Positions 2,104 through 47,107 of a stretch of DNA of 64,000 nt are shown piece by piece. Within the stretch, counting starts at the first letter, position 1. The number at the start of each line of letters is the position of its first letter. The stretch lies in the NCBI GenBank assembly GCA_947650365.1, contig CANTAL010000021.1:1922001-1986000 (forward strand), given 5' to 3'. A program made the position numbers and the translations under genes. Under the pieces are notes generated by a model. It did not search any database. It was not told the DNA's origin and was given only the letters and a program-made list of their open reading frames with translations. This DNA comes from Chamaelirium japonicum. Lineage: Eukaryota; Streptophyta; Magnoliopsida; Liliales; Melanthiaceae.

Positions 2104-2664
2104 TATTATCAGCCTGAAAATATCGAGCCCAACTGACTAATCAGAAGAAAAGAGAGAGCGAAACAAAGATAGAAATAGAGCTTTGGAATTTAGATTCCTT
2201 CTTACTTCACACCTATACTCGTGGCCAATGGACTGGAGTAGGACTTCTCTTTTTACTTTACTTATCTCTCCGTTCTCTTCCCTCTTCTTCTCTCTCTTGT
2301 ATGGAGTTTCGGAATTTAGATTCATTCTTACTTCACACCTATACCCATGGCCAATGGACTGGAGCATGACTTCTCTCTTCTCTCTTCATTTATCTCTCTG
2401 TTCTCTTTTCTTTTCTTCTCTCACTTCTGTCTTTATTTCTCTCTCCGTTTTCTTATGACTCGTCGGCTGGGCTCGACATGTTCGTGCTGATAATATGTTA
2501 TGACAAGTGAGAAGAAAACGAAAAGATAAATAAAGAGAGAAGAGAGAAGAAGTCCTACTTCAGTCCATTCACCATGGGTATAGGTGTGAAGTAAGAAGAA
2601 ATCTAAATTCCAAAACTCCACTTCTCAATATTATAATTAAATCTCTCATTTGTCTTCTCTATTC

Positions 2665-2787
2665 TCCCATTGATTAGGGTTTCCTATAGATTGGTTAGGC
2701 CCTAAGTAAGCTTACCCTATAAATTATATACGACCCCTTTAGGGTGGGGCACATTTGACGACTCTCCCTTTATCCCATCTCATAATA
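2665..2787 (+). repeat. GA-leader LTR fragment (plus)
   Basis: It contains GATTAGGGTTTCC, CCTATAAATTATATACGACC and the LTR end, then ATTATCAGCACGA. A GA leader follows. Confidence 0.7.
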
Positions 2788-3291
2788 CATTATCAGCACG
2801 AATATGTCAAGCCAAGTTGACCAGTCGTAAGAAAACGGAGAGTGAAACGAAGACAGAAGAGTGAGAAGAAGAAAGAAGAGAACGGAGAGATAAACGAAGA
2901 TAGAAGAGAGAAGAAGTCCTGCACCAGTCCATTGGCCACGAGTATAGATTTGAAGTAAGAAGGAATCAAAATTCCAAAACTCTACTTCTTAATTTTTATA
3001 TGACCCCTGATGATAAGGCACGTTTGACGAATCTCTCTTTCTCCGATCACACAACACGTTATCTACAAGAACATGTTGAGCCCAGCCGACCAGTCACAAG
3101 AAAACGGAGAGAGAAACAAAGACAGAAGGGAGAGAAGACAAGAAAAGAGAACAGAGAGATAAACGAAGAGAGAAGAAGTCCTGCTCCAGTATATTGGCCA
3201 TGGGTATAGGAATGAAGTAAGAAGGAATCTGAATTCAAAAACTCCACTTCTTAATAATATAATTAAATATCTCTGTTCTCTTCTCTCTGCT

Positions 3292-4418: not shown

Positions 4419-4586
4419 TATTGTAAGATGGAAGAAAAAGAGGACCGTCAAGCGTGCCCCACCCTAAAGGTATTGTATATTATTTATAGGGTCAGCTTAC
4501 TTAGGGCTTAAGCAATCTATGAGAAACCCTAATCCATAGGAGTGGTCTGACGGTGGATAGCAATCTGATCGAATGATCTCTCAACA
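4419..4586 (-). repeat. Full-length 168-bp GA-leader LTR (minus)
   Basis: One of the few complete LTRs. Read on the minus strand it starts TGTTGAGAGATCATTCGATC, holds CCACCGTCAGACC, GGGTTTC and the TATA box, and ends next to the primer-like site CGTTATCAGCACGA. The AT-rich body abuts its upstream end. Its length equals that of the plus-strand copy at 5107, which helps define the family boundaries. Confidence 0.82.
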
Positions 4587-5106
4587 GTTGTAATATTTTT
4601 TATTTTTTTGAAGAAAAATGTAAAATATTTTTAAAGCAAACAAATTGAGTGTGCCTCATCCTTTCTTTACTTCCTATTATTTAATTAATTTAATTATTTA
4701 ATAAATTAAATAGTTAAATAACTAAATAAATATTTAATTATCTTCTCTCTTCTCACTTCATTTTATTACAATAATAATTAAGTGGAGTGTTGTTACTATT
4801 AATAGTTTAATTAAAACGAAGAGAGAAGAGAATTTACTATAATAATCATAGTAACGTTGAGATAATACTATTGAGAAGTTGAGTTTTAGAATTTAGATTT
4901 CTTTTTACTTCACACCTATACCCGTGGGAATAGACTTGAGTAGGACTTCTTCTCTCTTCTCTCTTATTTATCTTTGTTTAAATTATTAAATAATTTAAAA
5001 AAATTATAAATTAAGTTTTTAGTAAAATAATTAATTTAAAAAAACAAATTTTTTGCTTTAAAAATAACTAATATTTTTTTTTAAAAAAAAATTAAAATAT
5101 TACAAT
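4587..5106. repeat. AT-rich internal body between two inverted full LTRs
   Basis: AT-rich sequence made of TTAAATAATT-like runs. A partial unit with GA/CT leader pieces and ACTTCACACCTATACCCGTG sits inside it (about 4865-4970). Complete LTRs in opposite orientation flank it (4419-4586 and 5107-5274), so the whole could fold back. I see no coding sequence. Confidence 0.7.
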
Positions 5107-5274
5107 TGTTATAAGATCGTTCGATCGGATGGATGCCCACCATCGGATCTTTCTAATGGATTAGGGTTTCCCATAGATTGCTTAGGCCCTAAGTAAAATA
5201 ACCCTATAAATAAAATACGATCCTTTTAGGGTTGAGTACGTTTGACGGCTCTCTTTTTCTCCTATCTCACAACA
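5107..5274 (+). repeat. Full-length 168-bp GA-leader LTR (plus)
   Basis: Reference copy for the family. It starts TGTTATAAGATCGTTCGATC, continues with GGATGGATGCCCACCATCGG, has CCTATAAATAAAATACG, and ends CTCACAACA. CATTATCAGCACGA follows at the primer-site position. The box ATGGATGCCCACC and the start TGTTAT also occur in the Copia LTR at 12,150 and 17,771, so the two are probably related. Confidence 0.85.
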
Positions 5275-6724
5275 CATTATCAGCACGAATATGTCAAGCC
5301 CTATGGAATCTAATTAAATAAATATTTAATTAATTACAGAACTTCTTCTCTCTTCTCTCTTCGATATGTTCGTACTGATAATGTGTTTTGAGATGGAATA
5401 AAGTGAGAGCTATCAAACATGCCCCACCCTAAAGGGGTCATATAATATTTAAAGAAAAGAAAAGAGAACGGAGAGATAAACAAAGAGAGAAGAGAGAAGA
5501 ACTCCTACTCTAGTCCATTGGCCACGGGTATAGTTATGAAGTAAGAACGAAGCTAAATTCTAAAACTCCACTTCTCAATATTTATACGACCCATTAGATC
5601 TCGACCAACTCTTCATTTATTATACTTATTTAATCTCACAACACGTTATCAGCACGAACATATCGAGTCTAGCCGACCAGTCATAAGAAAACGGAGAAAG
5701 AAACAAAGACAGAAGAAAGAGAAGAAGAGAACGGAGAGATAAACAAAAAGAAAAGAGAGAAAAAGTCCTACTTTGGTCCATTGGCCAGGGTATAGGTGTA
5801 AAGAAAGAAAGAATATAAATTCCAAAACTCCACTTCTGTCTTCGTTTCTCTCTCTGTTTTCTCATGACTGCTCGGCTCGACTCGACATGTTCGTATTGAT
5901 AACATGTTGTAAGATGGGAGAAAGAGAGAGCTATCAAATATGCCCTACCCTAAAGGGGTCGTATAAATATTAAGAAGTAGAGTTTTGGAATTTATATTCC
6001 TTCTTACTTCACACCTATACCCATGGCCAATAGACTGGAAAGGCCATAGGTATATTATTTATTAGGTAAGATTACTTTGGGCCTAAGAAATCCCTAGGAG
6101 ATTACTTAGGGCATAAGCAGGACTTCTTTTCGTTTGTCTTCTTGTTTATCTCTCTGTTCTTTTCTCTCTTTCTCCTACCTCATAACACGTTATCTGTACT
6201 AACATATCGAGCCCAGCTGACCAGTCGCAAGAAAACAAAGAGAGAAGAGATGACAAAAGAGAGAGAAGAAGAGAGAAAAGAACGGAAAGATTTAATTATA
6301 TTATTGAGAAATAGAGTTTTGGAATTTAGATTCCTTCTTAATTCACACCTATACCCGTGGCGAATGGATTGGAGTAGAACTTCTTCTCTATTTTCTCTTC
6401 GTTTGTCTCTCTGTTCTCTTCTTTCTTTTCTGTCTTTGTTTCTCTCTCTGTTTTCTTTGTGACGGTCTACTGGGCTTGACATATTCATGCTGAATGGGAG
6501 ATATTATTTAACTAATATTATTTTTAGTCCTACTCTATGTTTAATCTCTTTTTAGTCATGCCAATAAACTAGAATAGGACGTTTTTTCTCTTCCCTTTTC
6601 ATGTATCTCTCCGTTCTCTTCTCTCTTCTTCTCTCCCTCTTCTTCTCTCCCTCTTTTGTCTTTGTTTCACTCTCTATTTTCATGCGACTGGTCGGCTGGG
6701 CTCGATATGTTCATGCTGATAACG

Positions 6725-11689: not shown

Positions 11690-12149
11690 ATCATAGTAAT
11701 GTTACAATAATTTTTTTAATAAATTAACCATTTATTTATTTATTAAATATTATAAATAATTTAATAATTAAGTTTTTAGTAAAATAATTAATTAAATATA
11801 ATTGTTATAGTATAAATAGTTATTTAATTATCTAAATAAAATAATTATTGCAAATTAGAGTTTTTGAAATTTAGATTCCTTCTTACTTCACACCTATACC
11901 CTTGGCCAATGGACTGGAGCATGACTTTTTCTTTCTTTATTTATCTTTTTGTTCTCTTTTCTCTTTTTTTTTCTTTTCTGTGGAGTTTTGAAATTTAGAT
12001 TCCTACTTACTTCATACCTATACCCGTGGTGAATGGACTAGGCAGGATTTCTTATCTCTTCTCTTTTAATATTTATTTAATTAGTTTACTTTATATTGTT
12101 AATATTAAAAAAATATTTAAATAACTAGATAATTAAATAATTAAATTAA
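11690..12149. repeat. AT-rich bodies plus a short minus unit, left of the Copia element
   Basis: AT-rich body sequence follows TATCATCTCGATGTTATTAT. A minus-oriented unit piece lies at 11,860-12,060. Positions 12,145-12,149 (ATTAA) are the left target-site duplicate of the Copia element. Block B has the matching stretch at about 36,226-36,695. Confidence 0.75.
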
Positions 12150-12305
12150 TGTTGGGGAAAAACTCATCTTATTATTCACCAAAGCCCCTATATATAGGCA
12201 TAATATGCCATAGGGATAGAGACGGGGTAAATCTCTAAATCCCTTGAATCCGGGGGTCTTTATCCGGTGGGCATCCATATCCGATGCAACCACCGTTTCA
12301 TAACA
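12150..12305 (-). repeat. Copia 3' LTR (left side of the window copy)
   Basis: 156 bp. On the minus strand it starts TGTTATGAAACGGTGG and ends CCCCAACA, with a TATA-like CCTATATATAGG. It has two differences from the right LTR. Confidence 0.93.
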
Positions 12306-12720
12306 CTCCCCCTTGGATGCCCACTTTTCAAAACATTGCCTCGTTAAAACCTTACTAAGGAAAACCCAATGGGACAAAACCTTTAGTGAAGGAAAAAGAG
12401 TACAACGCGTTCTTCAGGAACGTAGTTCTTCAGGAACATATTCGTCTGGAATCTTAGTGGGTGCGACTTACACTGCCTCATTAAAACCTTTCGATGGAAA
12501 AACCCTGTGGGAAAAAACCTCATTGCAGGAAAAAGAGTACAATGCGCAAAAGACATTCTTCTGGATGTCTCCATCTGCATCTGCAGGATGCTCCCCCTCA
12601 TCTTTATCCTATATTTTATTACAAGTATTGCTTACATCAATCTTTAAAAGAAAAGTACTCCCTCCCCCTAATACATTTAAGATGCTACTTCCCACCCTGT
12701 TAATACATCAATTTAAAATA
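12306..12720 (-). repeat. Copia 3' non-coding region with two-copy direct repeat
   Basis: Between the pol remnant and the 3' LTR lies a non-coding stretch with two related blocks of about 70 bp, near 12,341-12,410 and 12,476-12,545. Each holds TTAAAACCTT-like sequence followed by GGAAAAAGAGTACAA. From memory, similar blocks occur downstream of pol in other plant Copia elements; their role is unknown. The open frames here are composition shadows. Confidence 0.7.
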
Positions 12721-12724
12721 AAAT

Positions 12725-14420
12725 TCACATGCTCTGTTGGTGAAGTCTCCTCATGCCAATCTGATTTACCAACTTCTGGAATGTAGACTTTGGAAGCGCC
12801 TTGGTGAAGAGATCTGTCAGGTTCTCAGTTGACTTCTCCTGCTTTATAATAGTCTCTTCATTCTCTTGGAGTTCATGGGTGCAGAAGAATTTCAGGGAGA
12901 GTTGCCTTTGATGAAGCCACTTTGAATTTGAGCTAGGCATGCTGCATTACTTTTAAGAAACACATAACATATTTGTGATCTCCCTTTATGGGGATCAGAT
13001 AAATAATCTGAGTCTGCATATCCAATTGGGTTAGTCTTTTTACATGAATAGTATAAACCAATGTCAAATGTCCCCTTTAGGTATCTAAATATGTCCTTTA
13101 TACCATTCCAATATCTATGTGTAGATACAGAAATATATCTAACAAGTAGATTAACAGAAAATGGAATATCAGATCTAGTGCATTGAGATAAATAAATAAT
13201 TGCACCTATTGCACTTAAATAGGGTACTTCAGGACCCAGGGTACTTCAGGACCCAAGATATCTTCATTTTGTTTTCTAGGCTTGTATAGGTCTTTGTTAA
13301 CATCTAAAGACCTTACAAGTGGATAACACTTATCCGTATTAAATCTCTTCAGGAGATTTTCAATATATTTTGTTTGATGGACTAAGGTCCCATCCTAATT
13401 ACGTTCGATCTGCAGGTCGAGGCAAAATTTGACTCATCCAGGTCTTTCATTTCAAACTCCTTTTAAGATAGCCAGCAGTCTTCTCAATCTCTTCGGGAGA
13501 TCCTATTAGATTTATCATCTACATATACTGCTGCTATTATAAATCCATTCTGGGATTTCTTAATAAATACGCATGGGCATATATTATAATTTTTATAGCC
13601 TTTCCTAGACAGATATTTACTGAGCCGATTGTACCACAATCTTCTGGATTGTTTCAGACTGTACAATGCTCATTTTAATCTAATTGAATGCGTATTTCTA
13701 GATTTGGAGTTTGGTAAATCAAATCCTTCAGGGATTTTCATATATATTTCACTATCTAGGTTACCGTATAGGTAAATTAAATCCTTTAGGGATTTTACAT
13801 GGTTCAGTATCATTATCATCACCCTTCATTATCTCATTTGTCATAGTATATAAAAATATATCATCAACGACTATTTCTTTTCTATTCCATATTTCCCCTG
13901 AGTATGTGTAGAACACAGATATCTCATCATTGTTGGGTACCGGTACCTCTTTCCCAGTCTCTTCTAGGATCTGGGGCATAACCTCTTCCGGAGCGATATG
14001 CTTTAATTTAGGGAAATTGGATTTTTGATTCATGACATCTTCCGGACCGTCATGAATCCTCTCTTCAGGAGAGTTTATATTAAGAACAGCTTCTTCAGGA
14101 GCTGTATGGTGTGATATGCTATTTAATCTGCTCTTCCAGGGAGCTAAATCTTTGGAACCTATAGGTCTGCCACGCTTCTGGCGTGTGTCAGACTCATTTA
14201 CTGTCATTCTCCTAACGTCATGCTCACATTGGGGAGTCCTGGGGTCTAGATGAGACAGAATGAAAGTATTCCACGATAATTCACGTCGTTCCTTCGTGGA
14301 CAGGACGTTTATTATCTTTCTTATCTCCCCCTAACGACGGGAAGGCTGTCTCATCAATGTGACAATCTGCAAATCTTGCGGTAAAAATGTCACATGTTAA
14401 GGGTTCTAAATATTTGATAA
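12725..14420 (-). pseudogene. Copia pol remnant: integrase end, connector, RT, RNase H
   Basis: Minus-strand protein remnants appear in the normal Copia order. Near 14,210-14,410 is the end of the integrase region (DPRTPQCEH is recognisable), then the basic connector KRGRPIGSKD near 14,150. Reverse transcriptase is seen near 13,484-13,666 through LKQS...LWYNRLSKYL and the YVDD motif. The RNase H tail lies near 12,725-12,940 with DLFTKALP and IGMRRL. It is broken in several places and is treated as a fossil. These motifs make Copia certain; I could not decide the lineage. Confidence 0.85.
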
Positions 14421-14944
14421 TGTGCTAAGGAATAACCACAAAAGTTTTCTACGATCGTTTTTATCATTATTGTCCTAGGATATCCTAAACAATCATGCTA
14501 GATATTAAAAATTATAGGATTATGGAGCTTCTGGCTCACTATTTATCTTGGATTAGTACTGAGCTGTTGGCTCATATTTCCATGTGACACAACAATCCCA
14601 ATGTGAGTGAAGTATATCCCTAAGGATAAATTGGAGAATTTCTCTAGAGTAAACTATAGTTAATATACATGTCTTCCTTAGATTCTATTTCCTTACAGAG
14701 AAATAACATATTATTTGATATAAGGTTCTGACAACTTAGATATATAGGAAATGAAAAATATTTAATAAGAGAGATCTAAAAGATATCAAACAACCGAAAT
14801 ATCAACTATAATAAATCAAACAACTGTTCTGATAAAAATAAACGATATGATAATCTAACAAGCAAATGAAATATTAACTACTAGAAATCAAACAGTTATT
14901 CTAATAAACGATAGCAGTTTATCACTAAAAATATCCTGTCCCCC
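14421..14944 (-). other. Copia interior without recognisable coding sequence
   Basis: Protease and the integrase core would be expected here. I recognise no motif of either. The sequence is AT-rich and belongs to the element. Confidence 0.6.
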
Positions 14945-16018
14945 CTAGTTGTCGTTGAAGAAATCAGAAGTTGTGAGCTTGGTTTCTCCTTGCATCTTAT
15001 TGAGTTCATCTTCAAGGAGGTCATCATTGTCGAGGGCAAACATTGCATTACCCTCGGCTTTCTGTGATGCTTGAAAGTTTGCCACCTCTTCTTTAGATGT
15101 ACGACAGTTACAAGACCAATGGCCTTCACGCCCACACTTGAAACAAGTGTCTGTAGGCCACTTATTAGAAGGAGAGTCTTCTGTCACTAGTTCTGCGTGC
15201 CAGGGCTTGTTACTCTGTTTCTTGAAATTTGTATTTTGCTGCGGATTGAGTCCACCTCTGCTGGGGTGGCCACGCCTGCCTCTACCTCGGTAGCCTCCTC
15301 TGCTGGGGTTGCCATCTTTGTCGCCCCTGCCACTTCTGCCGGAGTGGTTATGGTGACCACCTCTTCCAAACCTTCCTCTGCCTCTACCTCTGTGGTATCC
15401 TTCATTGGCATGCGCTTCAGGGAACGCAAATGCTCCAGTTGGTCTGGAGTTGTGATTCTTCATAAGAACTTTATTGTTCTCCTCTGCAACTAAGAGTACC
15501 GAAATCAGATCTGATATTTTCTGGAAGTTTCGCTCCCGATATTGTTGTTGCAGTAGGATGTTCGTTGCATGGAAGGTGGATAGAGTCTTATCGATCATCT
15601 GTCCTTGGGTAACTGGCTCTCCACATAGCTCAAGTCGGGACACGATATTAAACATTGCAGAATTATATTCTGCGACTGATTTAAAATCTTGGTAGCGCAG
15701 GTTTATCCATTCATTCCTCGCTGCTGGAAGGATGACAGCCCTTTGATGATCATATCTATCCCGTAGGGATTCTCACAGAACTAAGGGGTCTTCAACGGTT
15801 AAATATTCGTTCTTCAGGTCTATATGTAGGTGACGACGCAGAAAGATTGTCGCTTTAGCCTTGTCTTCAGGACTAAGTCTTTCCGTGCCTGTAGGCCTTA
15901 TAATCGCCTTACCCAACTTGATTGATTGTAGATGGAGCTTAGCATCTAGCCTCCATGCTAAGTAATTATTGCCGTTGACATCAAGTGCGACGAACTCCAA
16001 CTTTGTAAGGTTAGACAT
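14945..16018 (-). pseudogene. Copia gag remnant
   Basis: The N-terminal part (from 16,018 on the minus strand) reads MSNLTKLEFVALDVNGNNYL, the typical start of a plant Copia gag with the UBN2-like fold. It is followed by the stretch with EYLTVEDPLVL. The C-terminal part has a Gly/Arg-rich segment and a CX2CX4HX4C zinc knuckle (CFKCGREGHWSCNC, about 15,107-15,148). Gag forms the particle that packages element RNA. The gene is broken and is listed as a fossil. Confidence 0.85.
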
Positions 16019-16904
16019 CTGGGGACGGGATAGGAGCCTAGTTAATTGATAGATTAAAGACTATCGAATTCTATGAACATCGAAATCCTAACCGTTATGG
16101 AACAAATAGTTAAGATGTATCCATAGCCACATTGTACTGTCTCGGCTGACAAGGGCCGAGCTCACACACAGGCTATGGATGAGGTTAAAGATTATCATTT
16201 TACCTATTCAACATATGTCCATAAACAAAATAATATTCGGTATTGGCACTGGTAATAGTGAAAATCATTTTATCTAACAATGATAAAATTAATACACACT
16301 ACGAGATATAAATATCTATCTTAACCATAGTTATATATTCATGTATGCACGCATGTTTATATATTCATTAATTACTATGATTACCATATTCATCACATAT
16401 GCATATAGAGATATATTATAGAAAACAATTTGACATATCATGTACAAAGCCTATTAATACTGGTTATTAATAGGGTCCTTTTAGAAACCACTTGCCAAGG
16501 TAGAGCGGGTTCTATGGAACCGTCATGCGCCTTGCCATGCTTTTCTAAAATGTTCTAATTAACTAAAGTACATCTAATGAAGAAAATGATATTTTATGTA
16601 CATAGAACTGGTAAGAGATTCGAGACTTAAATACATCATAGAGTCTGTTACAATTAAGGACAATTCTGTCCTTGTTTGTAAAATAGATATTGCAAATTGG
16701 TCCCTTAGGGGCTAAACAGTTTAGTACATAAATAATGTGTATGAAATAGAAAAATCTGACCGTACCGATGCTTCCGGAATGGTTCGGATACCCAAAATTC
16801 ATATATGGATTGAACAATTTGGCTATATATCGGGCTTACAAAAGAGTATTTAAATGAACAGTGTATATCAAAACATTCAATCAAATGTATGTGAGTGCAT
16901 ATAA

Positions 16905-17110
16905 GAATGGACGGGTTGGATATGCAATACAGTCGGGTCGGGTCGGGTCTGTACAATACAGTCGGGTCGGGTCTGTATAAATCCAGTTGGGCCGGGCCTG
17001 CAGTGTGCAGTCGGGTCTGTACTATGCAATCGGGCCGGGCCTGCATGTAATAAACGGGTCGGGCCTGCTACATATACAGATCGGGTCTGATTATATATAA
17101 ACCGATAATA
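16905..17110. repeat. Degenerate GC-rich tandem repeat in the Copia leader
   Basis: About seven imperfect repeats of a motif like CGGGTCGGGTCTGTACAATA with spacing near 25-30 bp. The stretch is much more GC-rich than the AT-rich surroundings. Confidence 0.75.
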
Positions 17111-17544
17111 CTAAACTACCCTCCATATTAATTCAAATTTTCAATCTATATGCCATCAGCTTCTTTGTTAAAGGATAGAAACAGAGTAATCGTTTTCTCT
17201 TGGGTCTGGATCTAGGAGCACCTAAAACCATTCGAGTTGGTTTCGGTGTGGCCGTGGTTGGTCGGATGCCGAACTACCTTGCACAGGCCCTTGGGCATGC
17301 GATGCATGAAGTCGGCAACCTGGTTTGTATGAAGCCGTACAAGGCCTCGAGCAACTTGGGGTTGATCCGTCGATGGGTTCGGGGTCTCGGACGGATCGAG
17401 CTTTGAGCAGTCATGTTAGGTAACTGATCTTCACCTCGGGCAAAAGACGGTGCCGGGTCTTTGGTCTCCGGCCGAACATGACCGGCATGCAATGTAAAAG
17501 GTGATACAGGCGTACCTGGTTCAGAGAAGACCTGTTAGGTAATC

Positions 17545-17672
17545 GGAGTCGGAGCCGGGGAGGACGAGAGCCGGGGTTCGCACGTAACGAGACCCGGAGG
17601 TCTCCCGAGACGGGATCCGGAGCCGGGGAGGATGGGATCCAGAGCCGGGGAGGATGAGATCCAGAGCCGGGT
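17545..17672. repeat. Short tandem repeat with GAGCCGGGGAGGA core
   Basis: Four copies of AGAGCCGGGGAGGA-like sequence separated by GATGGGATCC-like spacers, inside the Copia leader near the 5' LTR. Confidence 0.75.
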
Positions 17673-17770
17673 GAGAGAAGGTCTTTCTCTCTTCTTCTCT
17701 TCCTCTCTCTCTCTCTCTCAGATCTCTCTCTGGAGCGATGGGGACGGTCGGCCAGATCGTGCTGATAACG

Positions 17771-17926
17771 TGTTGGGAAAAAACTCATCTTATTATTCAC
17801 CAAAGCCCCTATATATAGGCATAATATGCCATAGGGATAGAGACGGGGTAAATCTCTAAATCCCTTGAATCCGGGGGTCTTTATCCGGTGGGTATCCATA
17901 TCCGATGCAACCACCGTTTCATAACA
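17771..17926 (-). repeat. Copia 5' LTR (right side of the window copy)
   Basis: 156 bp, the partner of 12,150-12,305. The element's minus-strand transcript would start here. A TATA-like CCTATATATAGG lies near 17,809. TSD ATTAA follows at 17,927-17,931. Confidence 0.93.
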
Positions 17927-18240
17927 ATTAATTAATTATTTTACTAAAAACTTAATTATTAAATTATCTAATTATTAAATTATTTAATAATTAAATAAAT
18001 AATTATAGTAATAGTACTATGATAATCATAATAACGTTGAGATGATACTATTGAGAAGTGAAGTTTTGGAATTTAGATTTTTTCTTACTTCACACCTATA
18101 TCCATGATGAATGGAGTAAAGAAAGACTTCTTCTCTCTTCTCTCTTCGTTTATTTCTTCGTTTTCTTTTCTCTTCTTCTCTCTCTTATATCTTCGTTTCT
18201 CTCTATATTTTCTTCTCTTTTCTGTCTTTGTTTCTTTTTC

Positions 18241-18344
18241 TCATAGATTGTTTAGGCCCTAAGTTAGCTTACCCTATAAATAATATACGACCCCTTTAGG
18301 GTGGGGTATGTTTGATGGCTCTCTCGTTCTCCTATCTCAAAACA
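18241..18344 (+). repeat. GA-leader LTR fragment (plus)
   Basis: TATA box CCTATAAATAATATACGACC, end CTCAAAACA, then CATTATCAGCATGA and a GA leader. Confidence 0.72.
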
Positions 18345-20286
18345 CATTATCAGCATGAACATATCGAGCCCAACCGACCAGTCACAAGAAAACGGAGAGT
18401 GAAACAAAGATAAAAGAGAGAAAAGAAGAGAGAAGAGAACAGAGAGATAAACAAAGAGAGAAGACAGAAGAAGATAGAAGAGAACAGAGAGATAAACGAA
18501 GAGAGAAGAGAGAAGAAGTCCCACTCCAATCCATTGACCATGGGTATAGGTGTGAAGTATAAAGGAATCCAAATTCCAAAACTCTACTTGTTAATATTTA
18601 TATGACCCCTTTATAGTGGGGCTCGTTTGACGGCTCTCTCTTTCTCCAATCGCATAACACGTTATCAGTATGAACCTATTGAGCCCAGCCGACCAGTCGT
18701 AAGAAAACAAAAAAAGAAATGAAGATAGAAGTGGAGTTTTGGAATTTAAATTCCTTCTTACTTCACACCTATACCCGTGATTAATGGACTGGAGTAGGAC
18801 TTCATCTCTCTTCTCTCTTTGTTTATCTCTTTATTCTCTTATCTCTCTTCCGTCTTTATTTCTCTCTCCGTTTCTTATGACTGGTCGGTTGGGCTCGATA
18901 TATTCCTACTAATAACATGTTATGAGATGGGAGAAAGAAAGAGCCGTCTAACGTGCCCCACCCTAAAGGGGTCGTACATTATTTATATGGTAAGTGTTGT
19001 GAGATGGGAGAATAAGAGAGCCATCAAACATGCCCCACCCTAAACAGGTCGTATAAATATTGAGAAGTAGAGATTTAGAATATAGATTCCTTCTTACTTT
19101 ACACCTATACCCGTGGCCAATGGACTAGAGCAGGACTTCTTCTCTCTTCGTTTATCTCTCCGTTCTATTCTCTCTTCTTCTCTCTCTTCTGTCTTTGTTT
19201 CTTTCTCTGTTTTTTTCATAATCATATATTAGTTAAATAACATAGAGCCGGACTTCTTCTCTCTTCTCTCTTTATTTATCTCTCCATTCTCTTCTCTCTT
19301 CTCATAACACGATATCAACACAAACATGTCGAGCCCAGCAGACCAGTCATAAGGAAACAAAGAAAGAAACAAAGAAAGAAAAGAGAGAAGAAGAGAAAAG
19401 AGAATGAAGAGATAAGCGAAAAGAGAAGAGAGAAGTCATACTCCAGTCCATTGGCCATGGGTATAGCAGTAAAGTAAAAAGGAATCTAAATTCTAAAACT
19501 TCACTTTACAATATTTATACGATCGTTTTAGGGTGGGGTATATTTGATGGCTCTCTCTCTCCCATCTCACAATATGTTATCAGCACGAACATGTCGATCC
19601 CAGCCGACCAGTCATAAGAAAACGAAGAGAGAAACAAAGACAAAAGAGAAAAGAAGAGAGAAAAGAACGGAGAGATAAATAAAGATAGAATGGAGAAGAA
19701 GTCCTACTCTAATCGAAAACTCTATAGAAGAGAGAAAAGAAAAGAGAATAGAACAGAGAGATAAATGAAAAGAGAAGAGAGAAGAAGTCCTGCTCCAATC
19801 CATTGGCCATGGGTATAGGTGTGAAGTAAGAAGAAATCTAAATTCAAAAACTCCACTTCTGTCTTTGTTTCTCTCTCCGTTTTCTTGGGACAGGTCGGTT
19901 GGGCTTGATATATTCGTGCTGATAACGTGTTGTGAGATTGGACAAAGAGAGACCCGTCAAACATGGCCCACCATAAAGGGGTCGTATAAATATTGAGAAG
20001 GGGAGTTTTAGAATTTAGATTCTTACTTACTTCGCACCTATACTCATGGCCAATGGACTGGAGTAGGGCTTCTTCTCTCTTTATTTATCTCTCTGTTCTC
20101 TTCTCTATTCTTCTCTCTCTTCTGTCTTTGTTTCTCTCTTTATTTTTTTACGACTGGTCGGCTGGGCTCGACATGTTCATGCTGATAACGTGTTGTGAGA
20201 AGAGAGAAGAAGAGAGAATAGAGAAGAAGTAAAAAACTCCACTTATTAATAATATAATTAAATCTCTATATTCTCTTCTCTCTTCT

Positions 20287-20408
20287 CCCATAGATTAGGA
20301 TTTCCTATAGATTGCTTAGGCCCTAAGTAAGTTTAACCTATAAATAATATACGATCCTTTTAGGGTGGGTCACATTTGATAGCTCTCCCTTTCTTCCATC
20401 TCATAACA
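20287..20408 (+). repeat. GA-leader LTR fragment (plus)
   Basis: It runs from GATTAGGATTTCC through ACCTATAAATAATATACGA to CTCATAACA, followed by a mutated primer-like site. Confidence 0.7.
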
Positions 20409-20640
20409 TGTTATCTGTACGAATATGTCGAGCCCAACTGACCAGTCGCAAGAAAACGGAAAGAGAAACGAAGGCAGAGGAGATAGAAGAGAACACAGAT
20501 ATAAACAAAGATAGAAGAGAGAAGAAGATCAACTCCAGTCCATTGGCCATGGGTATAGGAATGAAGTAAATAGGAATCTAAATTCTAAAACTCCACTTCT
20601 CAATAATATAATTAAATCTCACTAGTCTCTTCTCTCTTTT

Positions 20641-20762
20641 CCTATGGATTAGGGTTTCCCATAGATTGCTTAGGCCCTAAGTAAGCATACCCTATAAATA
20701 ATATATAACCCCTTTAGGGTGGAGCACGTTTGATGGTGCTCACTTTCTTCTATCTCATAATA
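20641..20762 (+). repeat. GA-leader LTR fragment (plus)
   Basis: CCTATGGATTAGGGTTTCCC, CCTATAAATAATATA, LTR end CTCATAATA, then CGTTATCAGCAC. Confidence 0.72.
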
Positions 20763-21155
20763 CGTTATCAGCACAAATATGTCGAGCCCAACCGACTAAC
20801 TACAAGAAAACGGAGAGAGAAATGAAGACAAAAGAGAGAGATAAAAAGAGAAGAGAAAAGAAAAAAGAGAGAAGAGAGAAGAAGTCCTACTCCAGTCCAT
20901 TGGCCACAAGTATAGGTGTGAAGTAAGAAGGAATCTAAATTCCAAAACTCCACAAAAAAGAGAGAAGTAGAGAGAAGAGAATAGAGAGATAAATAAAGAG
21001 AGAAAAGAGAAGAAGTCCTACTCCAGTCCATTGGCCACGAGTATAGGTGTGAAGTAAGAAGGAATCTAAATTCCAAAACTCTACTTCTGTCTTCGTTTCT
21101 CTCTCTATTTTCTTACGACTGGTCGGATGGGCTCGATATTTTCATGCTGATAACG

Positions 21156-21279
21156 TGCTGTGAGATGGGAGAAAGAGAAAGTCATCAAACGTGCCCTACC
21201 CTAAAGGGGTCGTATATTATTTATAGGGTAATCTTACTTAGGGCCTAAGCAATCTATGAGAAACCCAAATCCATGGGAG
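21156..21279 (-). repeat. GA-leader LTR fragment (minus)
   Basis: It starts TGCTGTGAGATGGG after the antisense primer site CGTGCT-like end and has TATTTATAGGGTAATC. It runs to AATCCATGGGAG and joins a leader. Confidence 0.7.
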
Positions 21280-21467
21280 AAGATAGAAGAGAACGAAGAA
21301 ATAAACAAAGATAGAAGAGAGAAGAAGTCTTACTTCAGTCCATTGGCTACAGGTATATGTGTAAAGTTAGAAGGAATCTATATTCCAAAACTCCACTTCT
21401 GTCTTCATTTCTCTCTCTGTTTTTTTACGATTGGTCAGCTGGGCTTGACATGTTCGTGCTGATAATG

Positions 21468-21590
21468 TGTTGTGAGATAAGAGAAAGAGAGAGTCGTCAA
21501 ACGTTCCCAACCCTAAGAGGGTCGTATATTATTTAAAAGGTAAGATTACTTAGGGCCTAAGCAATCTATAGGAAACCCTAATCCATATGA
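21468..21590 (-). repeat. GA-leader LTR fragment (minus)
   Basis: It starts TGTTGTGAGATAAG after TTCGTGCTGATAA, has TATTTAAAAGGTAAG in the TATA region, and ends near AACCCTAATCC. Confidence 0.7.
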
Positions 21591-22241
21591 GAGATAAAGA
21601 AGAGAACAAAGAGATTTAATTACGTTATTGAGAAATGGAGTTTTGGAATTTAGGTTCCTTCTTACTTCGTACCTATACCCGTGGTAAATGGACATGAGCA
21701 GGACTTCTTCTTTCTTCGTTTATCTCTCTGTTCGCTTCTCTCTTCATTTATCTCTCTGTTCTCTTCTCTCTTCTCACAATATGTTATCAGCATGAACATG
21801 TCAATCCCAACTGACTAGTCACAAAAAAACAGAGAGAAACGAAAACAGAAGAGAGAAAAGAACGAAGAGAACAGAGAGATAAATGATGTGAGAAGAGAGA
21901 AGAGAGAAGAAGACCTACTCTAGTGCATTGGCCACAGGTATAGGTATGATGTAAAAAGGAATCTAAAATCCAAAACTCTACTTCTCAATATTTATACGAT
22001 CCCTTTAAGGTAGGGCACGTTTGACGGCTCTCTTTTTGACTCATCTCACAACACGTTATCAGCACGATGATTTCGAGCTCAACCGACCAGTCATAAGAAA
22101 ATGGAGAGATAAACGAAAACAGAAGAGATAGAAGAAGAGAGAAGAGATCAGAGAGATAAATAAAGAGAGAAGAGAGAAAAAGTCCAGCATTATTCCATTG
22201 GCCACAGGTATAGGTTTGAAGTCAGAAAAAATCCGACAACG

Positions 22242-22364
22242 TGTTGTAAGATAGGAGAAAGAGAGAGCCGTCAAACGTGCCCTATCCAAAAGGGGTCATA
22301 TATTATTTATTGTGTAAGCTTACTTAGGGCCTAAGTAATCTATGGTAAACCCTAATCCATGGGA
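22242..22364 (-). repeat. GA-leader LTR fragment (minus)
   Basis: It starts TGTTGTAAGATAGG, has TATTTATTGTGTAAGC, and ends AACCCTAATCCATGGGAG. Confidence 0.68.
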
Positions 22365-22814
22365 GAAGAGAGAAGAGAACGAAGAGATTATAATTATATT
22401 ATTGAGAAGTAGAGCTTTGGAATTTAGATTCCTTCTTACTTCATACCTATACCCATGGCGAATGGATTAGAGCAGGACTTCTTCTCTCTTCGGTTATCTT
22501 TTTATTCTCTTCTCTCTTCTCAAAACACATTATCAGCACGAACATGTCGAGCCCAGCCGACCAGTCACAAGAAAACAAAGAGAAAAACGAAGATAGAAGA
22601 GAGAGAGAGAAACGAAGATAGAAGAGAGAGAAGAAGAGGGAATAAACAAAGAAAGAAGAGAGAAGAAGTCCTAGTCCTGTCCATTGACCACGGGTAAAGA
22701 TGTGAAGTAGGAAGGAATGTAAATTCCAAAACCCAACAGAAGATTAAAAAGAAGAGAGAAGAGAACAGAGAGATAAATAAAGAGAGAAGAGAGAAGAAGA
22801 CCTACTCTAGTTCA

Positions 22815-22947
22815 TTATCCACCGTCGGATCTTTCTTTTGGAATAGGGTTTCTCATAGATTGCTTAAGTCCTAAGTAAGCTTACCATATAAATAATATAA
22901 AGGGTGGGGCACATATGACGGCTCTCTCTTTATCCCATCTTACAACA
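22815..22947 (+). repeat. Nearly complete GA-leader LTR (plus)
   Basis: It includes the upstream box ATCCACCGTCGGATC, ATATAAATAATATAAAGGG, and the end CTTACAACA, followed by CGTTATCAGTATGA. Confidence 0.72.
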
Positions 22948-24090
22948 CGTTATCAGTATGAACATATCGAGCCCAGCCGTTAAATAATTCATTTATCTCT
23001 CCCTTCTCTTTTCTCTTTTCTCTTCTCATAACACGTTATCAGCATGAACATGTCAAGCCCAGTCGACCCGTCACAAGAAAACAGAGAGAGAAATAAAGAC
23101 AGAAGAGAAAGATGAAGAGAAAAAAGAACGAAGAGATAAACAAACAGAGAAGAGAGAAGAAGTCCTGCTCCAAGCCATTGGCCACGGGTATAGCAGTGAA
23201 GTAAGAAGGAATCTAAATTCCAAAACTCTACTTCTCAATATTTATACGACCCCTTTAGGGTGGGGCATATTTGACGGCTCTCTCTCTCTCTCCAATCTCA
23301 GAACACGTTATCAGCACGAATATATCGATCCCAGCTGACAAGTCACAAGAAAATTGAGAGAGAAACAAAGATAGAATAGAGAAGAGAACAGAGAGATAAA
23401 CGAAGATAGAAGGGAGAAGAAGTTCTGCTCTAGTCCAAAACTCTATAGAAGAGAGAGAAGAAAAGAAAAGAGAACAGAGAGATAAATAAAGAAAGAAGAA
23501 AGAAGAAGTCCTGCCCCAGTCTATTAGCCACGGGTATAGGTGTGAAGTAAGAAGAAATCTAAAATCAAAAACTCCACTTCTGTCTTTGTTTCTCTTTCTA
23601 TTTTTGTACGACTGGTTGGCTGGGCTCGACATATTCATGTTGATAATATATTGTGAGATAGGACAAAGGAGACCCGTTAAACGTGCCCCACCATAAAGGG
23701 GTCGTACAAATATTAAGAAGTAGAGTTTTAGAATTTAGATTCCTTCTTAATTCACACATATACCCGTGGACAATGGACTAGAGCAGAGCTTCTTCTCTCT
23801 TTATTTATCTCTTCATTCTCTTCTCTCTTCTTCTCTCTCTTCAGTCTTTTTTTCTCTCCGTTTTCTTATGACAGGTCAGCTGGGCCCGACATGTTCGTAC
23901 CGATAATGTGTTGTGAGAAGAGAAAAGAAGAAAGAAGAGAATGGAGAGATGAATAAAGAGAGAATAGAGAAGAAGTCCTGCTCCAGTCTATTCGTTACGG
24001 GTATAGGTATGAAGTAAGAAGGAATCTAAATTCTAAAACTCCACTTCTCAATAATATAATTAAATCTCCCCGTTCTCTTCTCTTCTCTTT

Positions 24091-24209
24091 CATGGATTAG
24101 GGTTTTCCATAGATTGCTTAGGCTCTAAGTAAGCTTACCCTATAAATAATATACGACCCCTTTAGGATGGGGCACGTTTGACGGTCGCTCTTTCTCCCAT
24201 CTCATAATA
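24091..24209 (+). repeat. GA-leader LTR fragment (plus)
   Basis: CATGGATTAGGG, CCTATAAATAATATACGACC, end CTCATAATA, then the intact primer-like site CGTTATCAGCACGA. Confidence 0.72.
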
Positions 24210-24696
24210 CGTTATCAGCACGAACATGTCGAGCCCAGCCAACCAGTCGAAAGAAAACGGAGAGAGAAACGAAGATAGAGGAGAGAGAAGAAGAGAGAAG
24301 AGAATGGAGATATAAACAAAGATAGAAGGGAGAATAAGTCCTACTCCAATCCATTGGTCACAGGTATAGGTGTGAAGTAAGAAGGAATCTAAATTCCAAA
24401 ACTCCACAAAAGAGAGAGAAGAAGAGAAAAAAGAATAGAGAGATAAATAAAGAGAGAAAATAGAAGAAGTTCTACTCCAGTCCATTGGCCACGGATATAG
24501 GTATGAAGTAAGAAGGAATCTAAATTCCAAAACTATACTTCTATCTTCGTTTCTCTCTCCGTTTTCATACGACTGGTTAGATGGGCTCGATATTTTTATG
24601 CTGATAACATATTGTGAGATAGGAGAAAGAGAAAGTCGTCAAACATGCCCCACCTTAAAGGGGTCGTATATCTATATAACATGGCATGGCGGTCTG

Positions 24697-24775
24697 CATG
24701 CTGACTAGACAAAATGGTACCAAATGCTGACTAGACAAAAAAATGCTTACTAGATAATACTGACAAGACAAAAAA
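24697..24775 (+). repeat. Subterminal tandem repeat of the Helitron-like element
   Basis: Four imperfect copies of ATGCTGACTAGACAAAA, close to the 5' end of the element. The same array is in copy B at about 43,477-43,555. Confidence 0.8.
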
Positions 24776-25904
24776 ATTAGAAAAAGAGAGTCTAGCTCAT
24801 TTTTTTAAACAGAATTTTATTGCTCCTAAATAATAAAAAAGAAAACCCAATAACCCAACCCCCCCAAATCGGGAAACCCTCACCCTCGACCCGCCGTTCC
24901 CGCCCCTTATCGGACTCCTCAATGCACCCCCTTCCTCTCGAGCTGCCTTGCCTCTTCCGTGCGAGATGATCGCCCACCTCATTATCCGCCCTTCACGCCC
25001 CACCCTTCACGCCATCGTCATCGCGTGGCCTTCAAACCCCCCTTCACGCCCTCCTCTTCCCCAGATCAGCCCCCCCTTATCGCGCTGTCCTGAGCGATGC
25101 CATCCCGAGCGAGATGATAGCCACCTTATCGCGCCGCCTGCTTTTCACGCTCCCCTCTTACCCAGATCAACCCCTCATATCCCGTCACCCCTTAAAATCT
25201 CGAGCCCCCCCTTCACGCTCCCCTCATCACACGTCGTTCATGCCCCCCTCTTCCCTAGATCGGTCACCCCTCAAAATCTCGAGCCCAGACCGTTGAAGGA
25301 AAGATCGTTCCATTCCTTTTTTGTCGTTCCCACAGATTGCGGTCGTGGATCTATGGAAGGAAAGGTTCTTTGCTGATCTCAATCGTCCCCAAATCACATT
25401 CAAAACTTTCCGTTTTTAATCCTCAAAATTCAGGTTATTTTGCTCCCCTTTCATTGAAAAATCGATTCGTATATTTATGCCAATCTCATATGAATTTTTT
25501 TTCTTTTTTACTCCCCTAAATTCAGATGATTTTGCTCCCCTATTTCACCATGGAAGGGAAAATCGATTCCGTATCTTTTTTCCGATATCATTCATCCCCA
25601 AATCGATTTTGCTCTTCGATTTCGTCCCTACAACTGCGGCAACCCTTTTGAATTAAAGAACGGAGAGAAGAGCTACCCTCGGAACACAAACCCATTACCA
25701 CCAACACGGCCACAGGTAAGCCGCATCCTCTTTGGAAATCATGCATTTCTGGAATGGCTCCAATTTTGTATCAGGTCTTTGATAAAATTTCTCTATATAT
25801 AATCGACCAAAGAAATCTAAAACTCTCGGAATAGCTCCAATTCAGTTTTTCAATGGCAATGTTTTTGTTTGAAAAGGTCTTCTTAATCCATACAGGACAG
25901 GCCG

Positions 25905-26460
25905 GACATAAGCCCCGTCAGAATTCCCATACCCATCTCTCTCTCTTGCTGATTTTTTTTTTTGGATGATTTTGTTTTTAATCAATGGTTTTATTGGTTT
26001 TTTTGCAGCGGTTATTCAACACCAAGGTGAGATCATTGTTATCTTGGTTTTCTTTGTCTGCAGAAAGAGAAATGCAACTCATCCCGAAGGTTTTTTTTAT
26101 TTCGGCGGCCCGATTGACATGGCAGCGTGCAACTGGTGGCTGAAAACCAGTAGCGACCTTAAAGTTCTTTACACCACCAGTTGCATGCTGCCTCAATCGG
26201 GCTGAGCGTGATTGGGAAAACCTTCGGGCTTAATAGCATTGCTCCTGCAAAAAACATTGTATGTAAGCCCCGTCAGAAATCCCGTTCCAATCTCTCTCTC
26301 TTGCTGATTTTTTTTTCTTGGTTTCTTAGAAGAAATTTGATATTTGTGTCTTGGCTTTTTTTTTATCTCTTGGTTCTCTTTGTCTGTGCAGAAATCATTG
26401 TTTTTAATCCCTGATTTTTTGTTTTGGTTTTTTTTGCAGCGATTATACAACACCAACACA
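25905..26460 (+). repeat. Duplicated exon/intron-like cassette
   Basis: Two related blocks begin TAAGCCCCGTCAGAA near 25,912 and 26,264. Each continues with TCTCTCTCTTGCTGATTTTT, then a poly-T tract ending GCAG, followed by CGGTTATTCAACACCAA or CGATTATACAACACCAA (near 26,009 and 26,440). The layout resembles an intron end plus a small exon copied in tandem. No continuous protein results, so it is described only as a cassette. Confidence 0.65.
26108..26202 (+). ncRNA. miRNA-precursor-like hairpin, copy A
   Basis: The left arm (26,108-26,139) contains GATTGACATGGCAGCGTGCA. The right arm (26,174-26,202) contains TTGCATGCTGCCTCAATC, its near reverse complement, with a small bulge and one G-U pair. 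The loop is about 34 nt. A stem near 30 bp with a short loop has the size of a plant miRNA precursor. I do not recognise a known miRNA. It could also be the footprint of a small foldback element. Confidence 0.5.
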
Positions 26461-26572
26461 TGTATCAAACCGAGGTGGGATATTCTTTTGCTAAGAAAAC
26501 AAAGTATTTATATCTATATAAAATTCAATTTCTATGCTTCTAAAAAGATGCCTTTGTTTTTAAAATCATATT

Positions 26573-26895
26573 TTGAAAACAACAGCGTCCCTTTGATACT
26601 GACATGCAAAGGGTCTCTCGGTGCACCACCGAGAGAACCATCTCTATTGTAATTTTATTTAAGAAACGATATTGATTTGGTGTATGACAATCTAAAAAAA
26701 TGTCAAAATTTATATATGTGGGTGATAAGTGTTTTTTAAAATCTAATCATATTTTGAAAACTACAATCTCCTTTTGCCACTGACATGCAAAGGGTCTCTC
26801 GGTGCACCGCTGAGAGACCCATCTCTTTTATACTTTTTTCTAAGAAACCATGTTGATTTGGTCGATGACAAATTAAAAAAAATGGCAAAATTCTT
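26573..26895 (+). repeat. Tandem 180-bp duplication, each copy with a short perfect hairpin
   Basis: Both copies hold GACATGCAAAGGGTCTCTCG. In the first, TCTCTCGGTG pairs perfectly with CACCGAGAGA around a 3-nt loop (26,614-26,636). In the second, a 13-bp stem with two wobble pairs spans 26,792-26,820. Downstream of the hairpin both copies share AAGAAAC, TTGATTTGGT and GATGACAA. Confidence 0.7.
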
Positions 26896-27113
26896 CTTAT
26901 TTTTTCTCCCCCTATTTCTTCCTATTTCCCTATTTGCATTTGTTTCTTTGTATGCTTCTAAAGGGAGGTTGTCTTTTTTGGCAAAATCAATCTGATTTTT
27001 TTTTCAGCAATTTATTCGAGCAAAATTCTTCTTATTTTTTCTCCCCCTATTTCTTTCTATTTCCCTATTTGCTTTTGTTTCTTTGTATGCTTTTAAAGGG
27101 AGGTTGTCTTAGC
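26888..27113 (+). repeat. Tandem duplication of about 125 bp, T/C-rich
   Basis: Both copies contain AAATTCTTCTTATTTTTTCT, CCCTATTTGC and AAAGGGAGGTTGTCTT (starts near 26,888 and 27,018). Confidence 0.75.
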
Positions 27114-27116
27114 TGG

Positions 27117-27118
<2 letters not shown>

Positions 27119-27158
<40 letters not shown>
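27119..27158 (+). repeat. (TC)20 microsatellite
   Basis: Twenty TC repeats directly before CTTGCAG. Copy B has fourteen at 45,897-45,924, so the tract length has changed since the duplication. Confidence 0.95.
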
Positions 27159-27160
<2 letters not shown>

Positions 27161-28018
27161 TGCAGTCATATTTCTCCTATCCCTTTTCCCCTGGGCGATC
27201 AGCTTTGCTCGATAGTCATGGAGATTTACAAGCTAAGATTGTAACTTTAGTTTTTTTTTATTTGCTATAATCTCTACATTATACTAATATTGTAGCTTTG
27301 ATTATTTGTTAATGAAATTTAGGGAATTAGTCACCTATCATTGGTATTGTGGATGGCCTTGATTTTTTCCCCTTTTTTTCTCCTCTTCTATCACGGTAGG
27401 ATCCAAAACTTGAAGGAGACCTAATTGACTGAACGTTTTGATTTCCAAAGCAGACTAATGGTGTGGTGACCAAATTGTGCTACTTTGATGTAACAAGTGC
27501 ATTTAGAACACAGCCAAGATAATGTTGTTCTTAGTCCTTAGAATAAAGATGATGACAGTGCATGATCTGAAACTTTAATGAAGAATCGGCTGTTATGAAT
27601 TTTGATTCAAACCTTAAGTTATAGGTATGTAGTCCCTATATAGCTTAAAATTTCCAAGTTTCATAATATGATTGAATACCACACAATTTTATAGAGATTT
27701 CCCTGCCTTATTCGGTTGCACTTGATGAATCAATTGGTGGAAGCTTAGTGCCATTTTAATAGTTTTCCTTTCCCTTTGAGTGATAAAAATTAGAGATGAA
27801 CCTGCCACATTAAGCTATAGATGATGACAGTGCATGATCTGAATATGTCTTAAATATCTACCTTTGCATTGTTTTCCAGTACTATTTTTTTTCTTTTCAT
27901 TCTGTCTAAGCAATTCTGATCATCAAATCTTCTCAAACTATTGTCAAAAAATAGCTGATTAATGGGTTGCAGAATGACATTCTCCCTGAAGCCCCTCCTC
28001 TGGCGCATAGCAGTACTA

Positions 28019-28290
28019 GCAGCGTGCGGGGGTACCGGATCTGGCGTTGTGTGGCCTCCTCCGATCCGACACGTCGAGCTGCACAAATCGGTGCCCTGAC
28101 ACCTCCGGGGCAAAACAACAGCGAGAGTGTGCGGGGGTGTCAGATCCGGCCCCTCGCCGCCTCCTCCAAGCCGACGCGCTGGGCTACTTGAATCGACACA
28201 ACAGTTGGAGCATACATGGTTGTCAGATCCATCCCTCTGATCTGCCGCCTCTTTCTCCGATCCGACACACCGATAACACCCGGTGTCTCC
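28019..28290 (+). repeat. Three degenerate GC-rich repeats of about 100 bp
   Basis: Blocks begin near 28,019, 28,120 and 28,205 with GTGCGGGGGTACCGGATC-like sequence and later CCGATCCGACAC-like sequence. The stretch is notably GC-rich and reads open in places, but nothing protein-like is recognisable. Confidence 0.6.
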
Positions 28291-28680
28291 TCCCTGCTCT
28301 CCCTCTCTTTCTTTCTCTCTCTCTCTCTCTGTACTGTCCCATTCTTTTCAATTTTTTCTCTCTCTCTATTTTGTTCTTTTTGTTCATTTACAGTTTTTTT
28401 CTATATGTTCAGGGGAGGGCGAGATCGGAGCGAGATTGGCCGGTGGCTCTTCCCTGCCCTCTCTCTCTCTATATATAGTTCATTTTTTCCTTCTTTATTT
28501 GGTTTCCTTTTTTTTGTTCTTTTACCGATTCTTCTTTTCTTTTCCTTCCCTATTTTTTTTTTATTTTCAGCTCTGTTTTTATTTTTGTTTTGTTATTTAT
28601 TTTTCCCTTTTTGTTATTTTTTTGTTCTTTCCGTTTTGTTTTTGTTTTTTTTAGCTTGCCAGATTCAACTCATTCAAGTT
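28290..28680 (+). other. T-rich low-complexity part of the Helitron-like element
   Basis: Long TTTTTTCTTTTC-like runs with a short GC-rich island (about 28,410-28,460, GGCGAGATCGGAGCGAGA). The open frames here are composition artefacts. Confidence 0.7.
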
Positions 28681-28954
28681 ATAGTTTTGTTTGTTTTAAA
28701 GAATCAATCAAATTATATTCAAATTTTTAAAATTCTTTATGAGCTATTGAATGTGTGATGCCGAAAGAGTTGAAATATTATCACATCTCAAGAAATTATG
28801 TCGCCACCTTTGAATTATTGTCACCTCCCTCAAAATATAGTTCTTGCCATCGAAATATTTTTTGCCGCTTTCGAAATCTTTTTTATGCCCTTGGACACGG
28901 GCTTTCGAATACGACGTTGTGGGTGGTAGTGGTGATATCTGGGGGATGTCTTTG

Positions 28955-29071
28955 CAACCGAAGGTAGCCCACTACAGTGCCGATAGGTGTGTTACCATCG
29001 AAGGCAGTCCAACTGTGTTTTGTCACCGAAGGCGGCCCACTGCAGAGCCGACAGGCACGGGCATGCACTAG
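28955..29071 (+). repeat. Three short repeats at the 3' end of the Helitron-like element
   Basis: Three related blocks start CGAAGGTAGCCCACTACAG, CGAAGGCAGTCCAACTGTG and CGAAGGCGGCCCACTGCAG, near 28,961, 28,999 and 29,027. The last runs into GGCACGGGCATGCACTAG, the element end. Confidence 0.75.
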
Positions 29072-29329
29072 TTATTTATAGGGTAAGCTTACTTAGGGCC
29101 TAAGCAATCTATGTGAAACCCTAATCTATAGGATATAGAAGAGAACGGAGAAATAAACAAAGAGAGAAGAGAGAAGAAGTCCTGCTCCACTCCATTGGCC
29201 ACGGGTATAGTTGTGAAGTTAGAAGGAATCTAAATTCTAAAACTCCACTTCTGTCTTTGTTTCTCTCTCCCTTTTCTTATGACTGGTCGGCTGGGCTCGA
29301 TATGTTTTTGCTGATAATGTGTTGCGCGA

Positions 29330-47068: not shown

Positions 47069-47107
<39 letters not shown>

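Follow-up and report, generated by a model that had tools for sequence, protein, structure and literature searches.

A 168-bp LTR-like segment of Chamaelirium japonicum probably belongs to a large retrotransposon-derived satellite spreading as blocks

The birth of satellites from LTR retrotransposons is established for the Ogre 3′UTR in Lathyrus (PMC7004042) and for Sobo (PMC3648361), and distal blocks with transposon involvement are described in rye (PMC4857426). In Lathyrus sativus, short tandem repeats of the Ogre 3′UTR form long arrays mainly in primary constrictions (PMC7004042), so that, as in the satellite analysed here, non-coding LTR-retrotransposon sequence has turned into a long-array satellite. 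Unlike in Lathyrus, the part concerned here is a Copia-like LTR with its primer site and leader, the unit measures 1.0–1.3 kb, the clusters are mostly distal, and the arrangement is a heavily inverted mosaic. Sobo of wild potato (PMC3648361) is similar in its long monomer (4.7 kb) composed of LTR sequence plus other genomic DNA, whereas it is Gypsy-LTR-like and amounts to about 360 kb in one pericentromere; the satellite described here occurs at tens of thousands of places that form many clusters. Arrays of the Cassandra TRIM (PMC7215508) also alternate an LTR-like and an internal part head to tail with no known coding capacity; the Cassandra LTR includes 5S sequences, the primer site is TGGTATCAGAGC, and elements also occur singly in complete form. 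In contrast, the primer site here is CGTTATCAGCACGA, no 5S match at the Rfam threshold was found in the window (the whole 64,000-nucleotide stretch that was analysed), and none of the elements seen was both single and complete. The subtelomeric heterochromatin of rye with pSc200 and pSc250 likewise forms massive distal blocks, which arose through the activity of satellites and transposons with illegitimate recombination; PMC4857426 presents these satellites as transposon-flanked tandem families and not as LTR-leader derivatives.

The retrotransposon-derived satellite is a kind already known, and the satellite described here would be a further member of it. No paper on this satellite was found in the open-licence literature, and open-licence papers yielded nothing related either for the primer-site sequence or for a Copia element primed by the tRNA-Ile anticodon arm; the term “primer binding site” in PMC7290377 denotes PCR primers.

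The window covers positions 1,922,001–1,986,000 of C33, a 2.1-Mb contig of the 1.52-Gb assembly (3,253 contigs). An earlier note, made from the letters of this window, had described a coding-free LTR family copied by a local Copia element. Its observation was partly confirmed and its letters were largely right. A 168-bp segment exists at 5107–5274 (plus strand), with a TGTTAT start, ATCGGAT-GGATGCCCACC, the TATA-like CCTATAAATA and a CAACA end, and is followed at 5275–5288 (plus strand) by the primer-site-like CATTATCAGCACGA. The segment is one of ~90 mostly partial copies (90 alignments to it within the window) and sits inside a larger satellite unit. The GA leader attributed to it is absent from the copy at 5107, which stops soon after the primer site. 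An AT-rich stretch adjoins the segment upstream (4967–5106, plus strand) and has homologues in other copies; one of these, an inverted partner 79.5% alike by alignment (4421–4586, minus strand), shares the upstream homology. We used a 383-bp reference module (2623–3005, plus strand) that consists of an inverted leader piece, the LTR-like part, the primer site, the GA leader and an end module. Segments of this module make up 39,952 of the 64,000 bases, in agreement with the claim that the family occupies most of the 64 kb, which holds outside the inserts. Coding frames were not evident in the array, where the open reading frames listed, judged by eye, are low-complexity frames.

The local Copia element (12150–17926, minus strand) carries 156-bp LTRs at 12150–12305 and 17771–17926 with 2 differences between them, the primer site CGTTATCAGCACGA at 17757–17770 (minus strand) and the polypurine tract AAGGGGGAG, and is flanked on both sides by the 5-bp target duplicate ATTAA (12145–12149 on the left, 17927–17931 on the right). 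It thus shows the LTR pair, target duplicate, primer site and polypurine tract of a Ty1/Copia element. Copia-type gag and pol are present too, in separate open pieces: a reverse transcriptase piece at 13484–13669 (minus strand; Pfam RVT_2, 32.5 bits against a cut-off of 31.6, E 8.4e-8), and weak gag remnants below the cut-off (Retrotran_gag_2, E 0.017; zf-CCHC, E 0.002). A profile search of the other Copia pieces found no integrase and no further Copia domain in those searched. Elsewhere in the genome, pairs of Copia LTRs lie ~2.5 kb apart at C9:64,427,287–64,429,998 and C2:47,551,154–47,553,781, and are candidate short Copia derivatives of the sort that the earlier note had been after.

The Copia primer site CGTTATCAGCACGA, which is the reverse complement of TCGTGCTGATAACG, is complementary at 13 of 14 bases to the anticodon arm of tRNA-Ile(AAU), and the site of the 5107 copy at 12 of 14, with one mismatch beyond that of Copia (hand counts). 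The word TCGTGCTAATAACG, which we take to be the tRNA-Ile(AAU) anticodon arm, occurs at 9 exact places in the genome, as counted by word match. The sole mismatch between the Copia site and this arm falls on anticodon base 34, which in the mature tRNA-Ile(AAU) is inosine and would pair with C.

LTR-like ends and a primer site are no proof of a mobile family; what decided the matter here was the sequence flanking the copies, together with the lack of free 3′ LTRs. A genome-wide search was made with the 168 bp, the best 40 of 3,602 candidates were scored, and 28 loci, the window included, were fetched. All 28 were collinear with the window, to which the greater part of each aligned at 90.1–100% in one to three main pieces, and their LTR-like pieces were identical in kind and largely unchanged in order. 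They are thus copies of one mosaic block and not independent insertions, which for the 168-bp family were ruled out in the copies read. Because the fetched loci were the most similar ones and would be biased if taken alone, the flanks were examined genome-wide. A 26-mer spanning 8 bp of upstream sequence plus the LTR start matched 7,502 places and another lying wholly within the LTR start matched 6,669 (at most 2 mismatches), while the reversed control words for both matched none. Of 11 copies near the window, 9, among them three mutual duplicates, continue upstream of TGTTAT with near-identical sequence, as do all 12 fetched loci compared (8 distinct), and the pattern holds genome-wide; the upstream homology reached at least 137 bp in 66 of 66 pairs of these 12 loci, and more than 1 kb in some. 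TGTTAT, which the earlier note had read as a border, is therefore no terminus.

The 3′ side gave a matching picture. In 56.7 kb of unduplicated sequence, 101 of 107 segments with an LTR 3′ end continued past the primer site (the remaining 6 stopped between module positions 163 and 186), as compared to about half expected of two-LTR elements, which means that free 3′ LTRs are missing. Genome-wide, the LTR end with the primer site was found at 27,995 places and the LTR end at 32,926, a rough ratio since two different words were used. For Copia, the tract with the LTR start was found at 512 places and the LTR end with the primer site at 593, near the 1:1 ratio that real elements should have. No polypurine tract lies directly before TGTTAT in any of the 12 loci (8 distinct), as AAGGGGGAG does in Copia; a purine-rich ggaagtaaagaaggaaga followed by TGAGG occurs ~70 bp upstream of TGTTAT and would suit only another LTR start. 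The primer site was conserved at 0.907 compared to 0.861 and 0.875 for its neighbours, and ranked 50th of 305 twelve-mers, the best of which lay elsewhere.

The LTR-start word served to fetch 12 loci, and five of them (L033, L034, L038, L042 and L044, of which L038 and L042 are 92.6% alike) contained long direct self-repeats at 1,006–1,314 bp, with successive LTR-like starts in one orientation spaced about 1,030–1,307 bp apart. Head-to-tail monomers, as in a satellite, were thus found in these five loci, and the other seven as well as the window are mosaic. Units, neighbouring and separate, were 77.6–87.6% alike (alignment score 793 against 71–103 in 10 shuffles). When only the AT-rich part was aligned, the score was 474 against 165–188, and the identity of 84.7% has to be read against the 71.5–77.3% reached by shuffles, as chance alone gives fairly good alignments in AT-rich DNA. 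The unit runs from AT-rich DNA (up to about 0.9 kb) through a conserved stretch of ~140 bp, the 168 bp, the primer site and the GA leader to the end module. The window is a scrambled derivative of it, in which unit segments are joined both ways at few recurrent breakpoints. The unduplicated 56.7 kb held 157 adjacent junctions of 50 types, and five classes accounted for 106 of them: end module/TATA part (28), leader/inverted end module (24), end module/module start (22), end module/leader (17) and inverted leader/LTR end (15). Adjacent segments mostly overlapped by a few bases, and these overlaps would fit short-homology joining.

We regard it as probable that the 168 bp are part of a large retrotransposon-derived satellite that has captured a Copia-type LTR-leader segment and spreads as blocks. 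A Copia-type 5′ LTR with its primer site and leader would have been captured once in AT-rich host DNA, and the captured segment would have been amplified as a satellite by recombination, with tandem and inverted rejoining perhaps aided by short shared words at the joins. Blocks of tens of kilobases may then have spread via exchange between chromosome ends, either by unequal exchange or by break-induced copying, and the copy number would need no reverse transcription by Copia.

The rival that fares best, though it is unlikely, is that a TRIM-type non-autonomous family, once mobilised by a relative of Copia, fused into LTR-internal-LTR-internal arrays and only then expanded as a satellite. An LTR-like part, a primer site and an internal part follow one another head to tail with a period of about 1.0–1.3 kb, which would agree with such an origin, as would the Copia-like LTR ends with the primer site directly after the LTR, and arrays of this type are known for Cassandra TRIMs (PMC7215508). 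If the alternative start TGAGG were taken, the purine-rich stretch before it would even restore the order polypurine tract, LTR, primer site. Against this origin, the paired direct LTRs with 5-bp duplicates, the independent flanks and the polypurine tract directly before the LTR (TGTTAT) that a TRIM should have were not found in the sequence read, which contained no independent insertion, no free 3′ LTR and no bounded copy, and the places are clustered.

In most of the copies tested, the LTR-like segment resembles the Copia LTR more closely than expected by chance. The two have in common the LTR ends and the primer site, as the earlier note had seen, while the interiors of the 168-bp and 156-bp LTRs gave no convincing alignment. 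The global score of the 168 bp against the Copia LTR was matched by none of 1,000 dinucleotide shuffles (observed −11, opposite strand −21, shuffle mean −34, shuffle maximum −13) and the local score by 9 of 1,000. Of three further copies, two were equalled by at most 7 of 500 shuffles, globally and locally; for the copy at 4421–4586, 2 of 500 shuffles equalled the global score, but 451 of 500 equalled the local one. When the first 41 nt of the Copia LTR were scanned along 8 distinct satellite loci, the top match fell on an LTR-like start in all 8: on the central one in 6, and at the same phase of the preceding repeat in L033 and L044. The top scores were 27–33, the next-best elsewhere reached up to 31 and were highest again at neighbouring repeats, and the opposite strand, scanned in two loci, scored 18 and 20. 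The Copia LTR end with the primer region was likewise placed on the LTR-like end in 8 of 8 loci. The monomer thus holds recognisable retrotransposon sequence, as expected of a retrotransposon-derived satellite, with a homology that is short. The shuffle tests and the 8 of 8 phase matches point to a Copia-type LTR and leader as the likely source of the segment, a conclusion that we draw with moderate confidence.

An ordinary satellite with no retrotransposon ancestry, whose likeness to the Copia LTR and primer site would be coincidental, is doubtful in the extreme by our estimate. It would account for the LTR interiors, for the one copy whose local score shuffles so often equalled, and for the opposite strand, which also scored above the shuffle mean. 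Against it, both Copia LTR ends lie at the right phase of the unit in all 8 loci, no shuffle in 1,000 attained the global score of the 168 bp, and the TATA-like box and the tRNA complement follow in LTR order.

The distribution in the genome bears on how the satellite spreads. Among the 400 matches listed (four lists of 100 exact matches on contigs C1–C4, some loci being in several lists), 395 lie in megabase clusters: at 116.3–118.2 and 133.6 Mb of C1, 0.1–1.6 and 108.2–112.0 Mb of C2, 0.1–1.2 and 92.4–100.0 Mb of C3, and 0.1–2.5 and 93.3 Mb of C4. Most of these clusters are near contig ends, and we call them mostly distal because two, at 116–118 Mb of C1 and 108–112 Mb of C2, are 10–21 Mb from the end. 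The other 5 of the 400 matches listed are outside clusters; isolated exact family words at C2:72,878,931, C3:17,617,972, C2:15,318,806, C3:3,958,663 and C4:85,586,301 are possible seeds or source copies. Counts combined with local densities gave a satellite size of 52–79 Mb pooled over both samples, and about 48–105 Mb per sample and word. Since the local density samples were non-random, the size is an order of magnitude: tens of megabases, some 3–7% of the assembly.

Copia, in contrast to the family, is scattered: among the matches listed, 4 of 100 places of the tract with the LTR start, and 1 of 58 on C1–C4 of the LTR end with the primer site, lie inside family clusters. The proposal of the earlier note, in which the local Copia copies in trans a coding-free family that is active or was so recently, is left with hardly any probability. 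It would explain the LTR ends and primer site held in common and an array whose coding frames, by eye, are not evident. What speaks against copying by Copia is the collinearity of the loci, the one flank found genome-wide, the lack of a tract, the 3′ read-through and the clustered places, all of which fit block duplication; the paired-LTR copies with target duplicates, by whose presence or absence that proposal was to be judged, did not appear either, no copy bounded by two LTRs having been found in the sequence read. The earlier interpretation was thus probably right about the ancestry, a Copia-type LTR and leader, and probably wrong about the mode of spread.

The window also shows large duplications. 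The mosaic contains an 18.8-kb tandem duplication, with its first copy at 17926–36212 (plus strand; 96.4% to the second) and its second at 36698–54961 (plus strand). At 57260–64000 (minus strand) lies an inverted copy of 27999–34764 (96.3%) and 46765–53511 (96.0%). An insert at 24671–29071 (plus strand), which we name Helitron-like from its end signals only, begins with TC, ends with GCACTAG and sits between A and T in the TATA region of an LTR-like part; it recurs near 43.45–47.84 kb and, inverted, near 62.9–64.0 kb. The sole match in the window at the Rfam gathering score, to the mir-16 precursor family (44892–44983, minus strand; 39.1 against 36.5 bits), falls inside the second Helitron-like copy; as mir-16 is an animal family, it is probably a mere long hairpin.

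On seven contigs, the 168 bp form eight inverted pairs 44–89 kb apart: C33 1927107+/2002877−, C4 1933744+/2009508− and 2395714+/2484599−, C43 392186+/461981−, C36 1265561+/1335151−, C14 747116+/821422−, C12 69046273+/69130101− and C3 731586+/775752−. C33, C36, C43 and C14 are short contigs with no chromosome assigned, and C3 and C12 are long contigs. The pairs apparently represent one palindrome that was copied as a block from contig to contig. Within C33, the two inverted arms share 96.6–96.8% identity. Over 3.2 kb around the 168 bp, C3 and C12 are 98.8% alike, and either of them is 96.4–96.7% alike to C4. The block on C33 and the two on C4 are 99.0–99.6% alike, and all three carry Copia at a matching offset, 7,023–7,043 bp from the 168 bp; C33 may be part of the C4 chromosome. 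Two further inserts were observed by eye in the inverted arm on C33: a LINE-like one with an A-rich tail and AGTAAAAAGAAATCT on both sides (C33:2,003,255–2,009,100, from ~7255 of L031 to ~3100 of L032), and a Gypsy-type element with pol-like sequence (from C33:2,012,573 on, ~6573 of L032), which breaks the arm. A giant terminal-inverted-repeat transposon, which the plus/minus pairs at 44–89 kb could suggest, was set aside, as no terminus was seen, the right arm on C33 runs into the LINE-like insert and then the Gypsy-like element, and the 20 kb to the left of the window is filled by array pieces.

If identity is taken as a relative clock, these events can be put in a tentative order. The units would have diverged first, to about 78–88%. 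The Helitron-like insert would have preceded the 18.8-kb tandem duplication and the inverted copy (96.0–96.4%). Copia came later than the 18.8-kb duplication, because the left border of the second copy, near 36,700, still has the target site of Copia unoccupied. The three blocks on C33 and C4 would have parted after the Copia insertion. The likeness of C3 and C12 (98.8%), set against that of the C33 arms (96.6–96.8%), suggests that large blocks passed from one chromosome to another once the palindrome existed. The Helitron-like insert, Copia and the 18.8-kb duplications thus serve as internal markers for ordering steps.

It is a long shot that a Copia-primed TRIM-like element was concatenated as LTR-internal-LTR-internal, came to occupy chromosome ends in the form of a satellite tens of megabases in size, and now spreads between chromosomes as palindromic blocks. 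If this were true, a retroelement would have switched from transposition to block exchange, and its satellite would still carry tens of thousands of copies of an LTR promoter and a tRNA-Ile primer site. On the favoured explanation, by capture of a Copia-type segment, the finding means that an LTR-leader fragment can turn into a satellite accounting for a few per cent of the genome that carries it.
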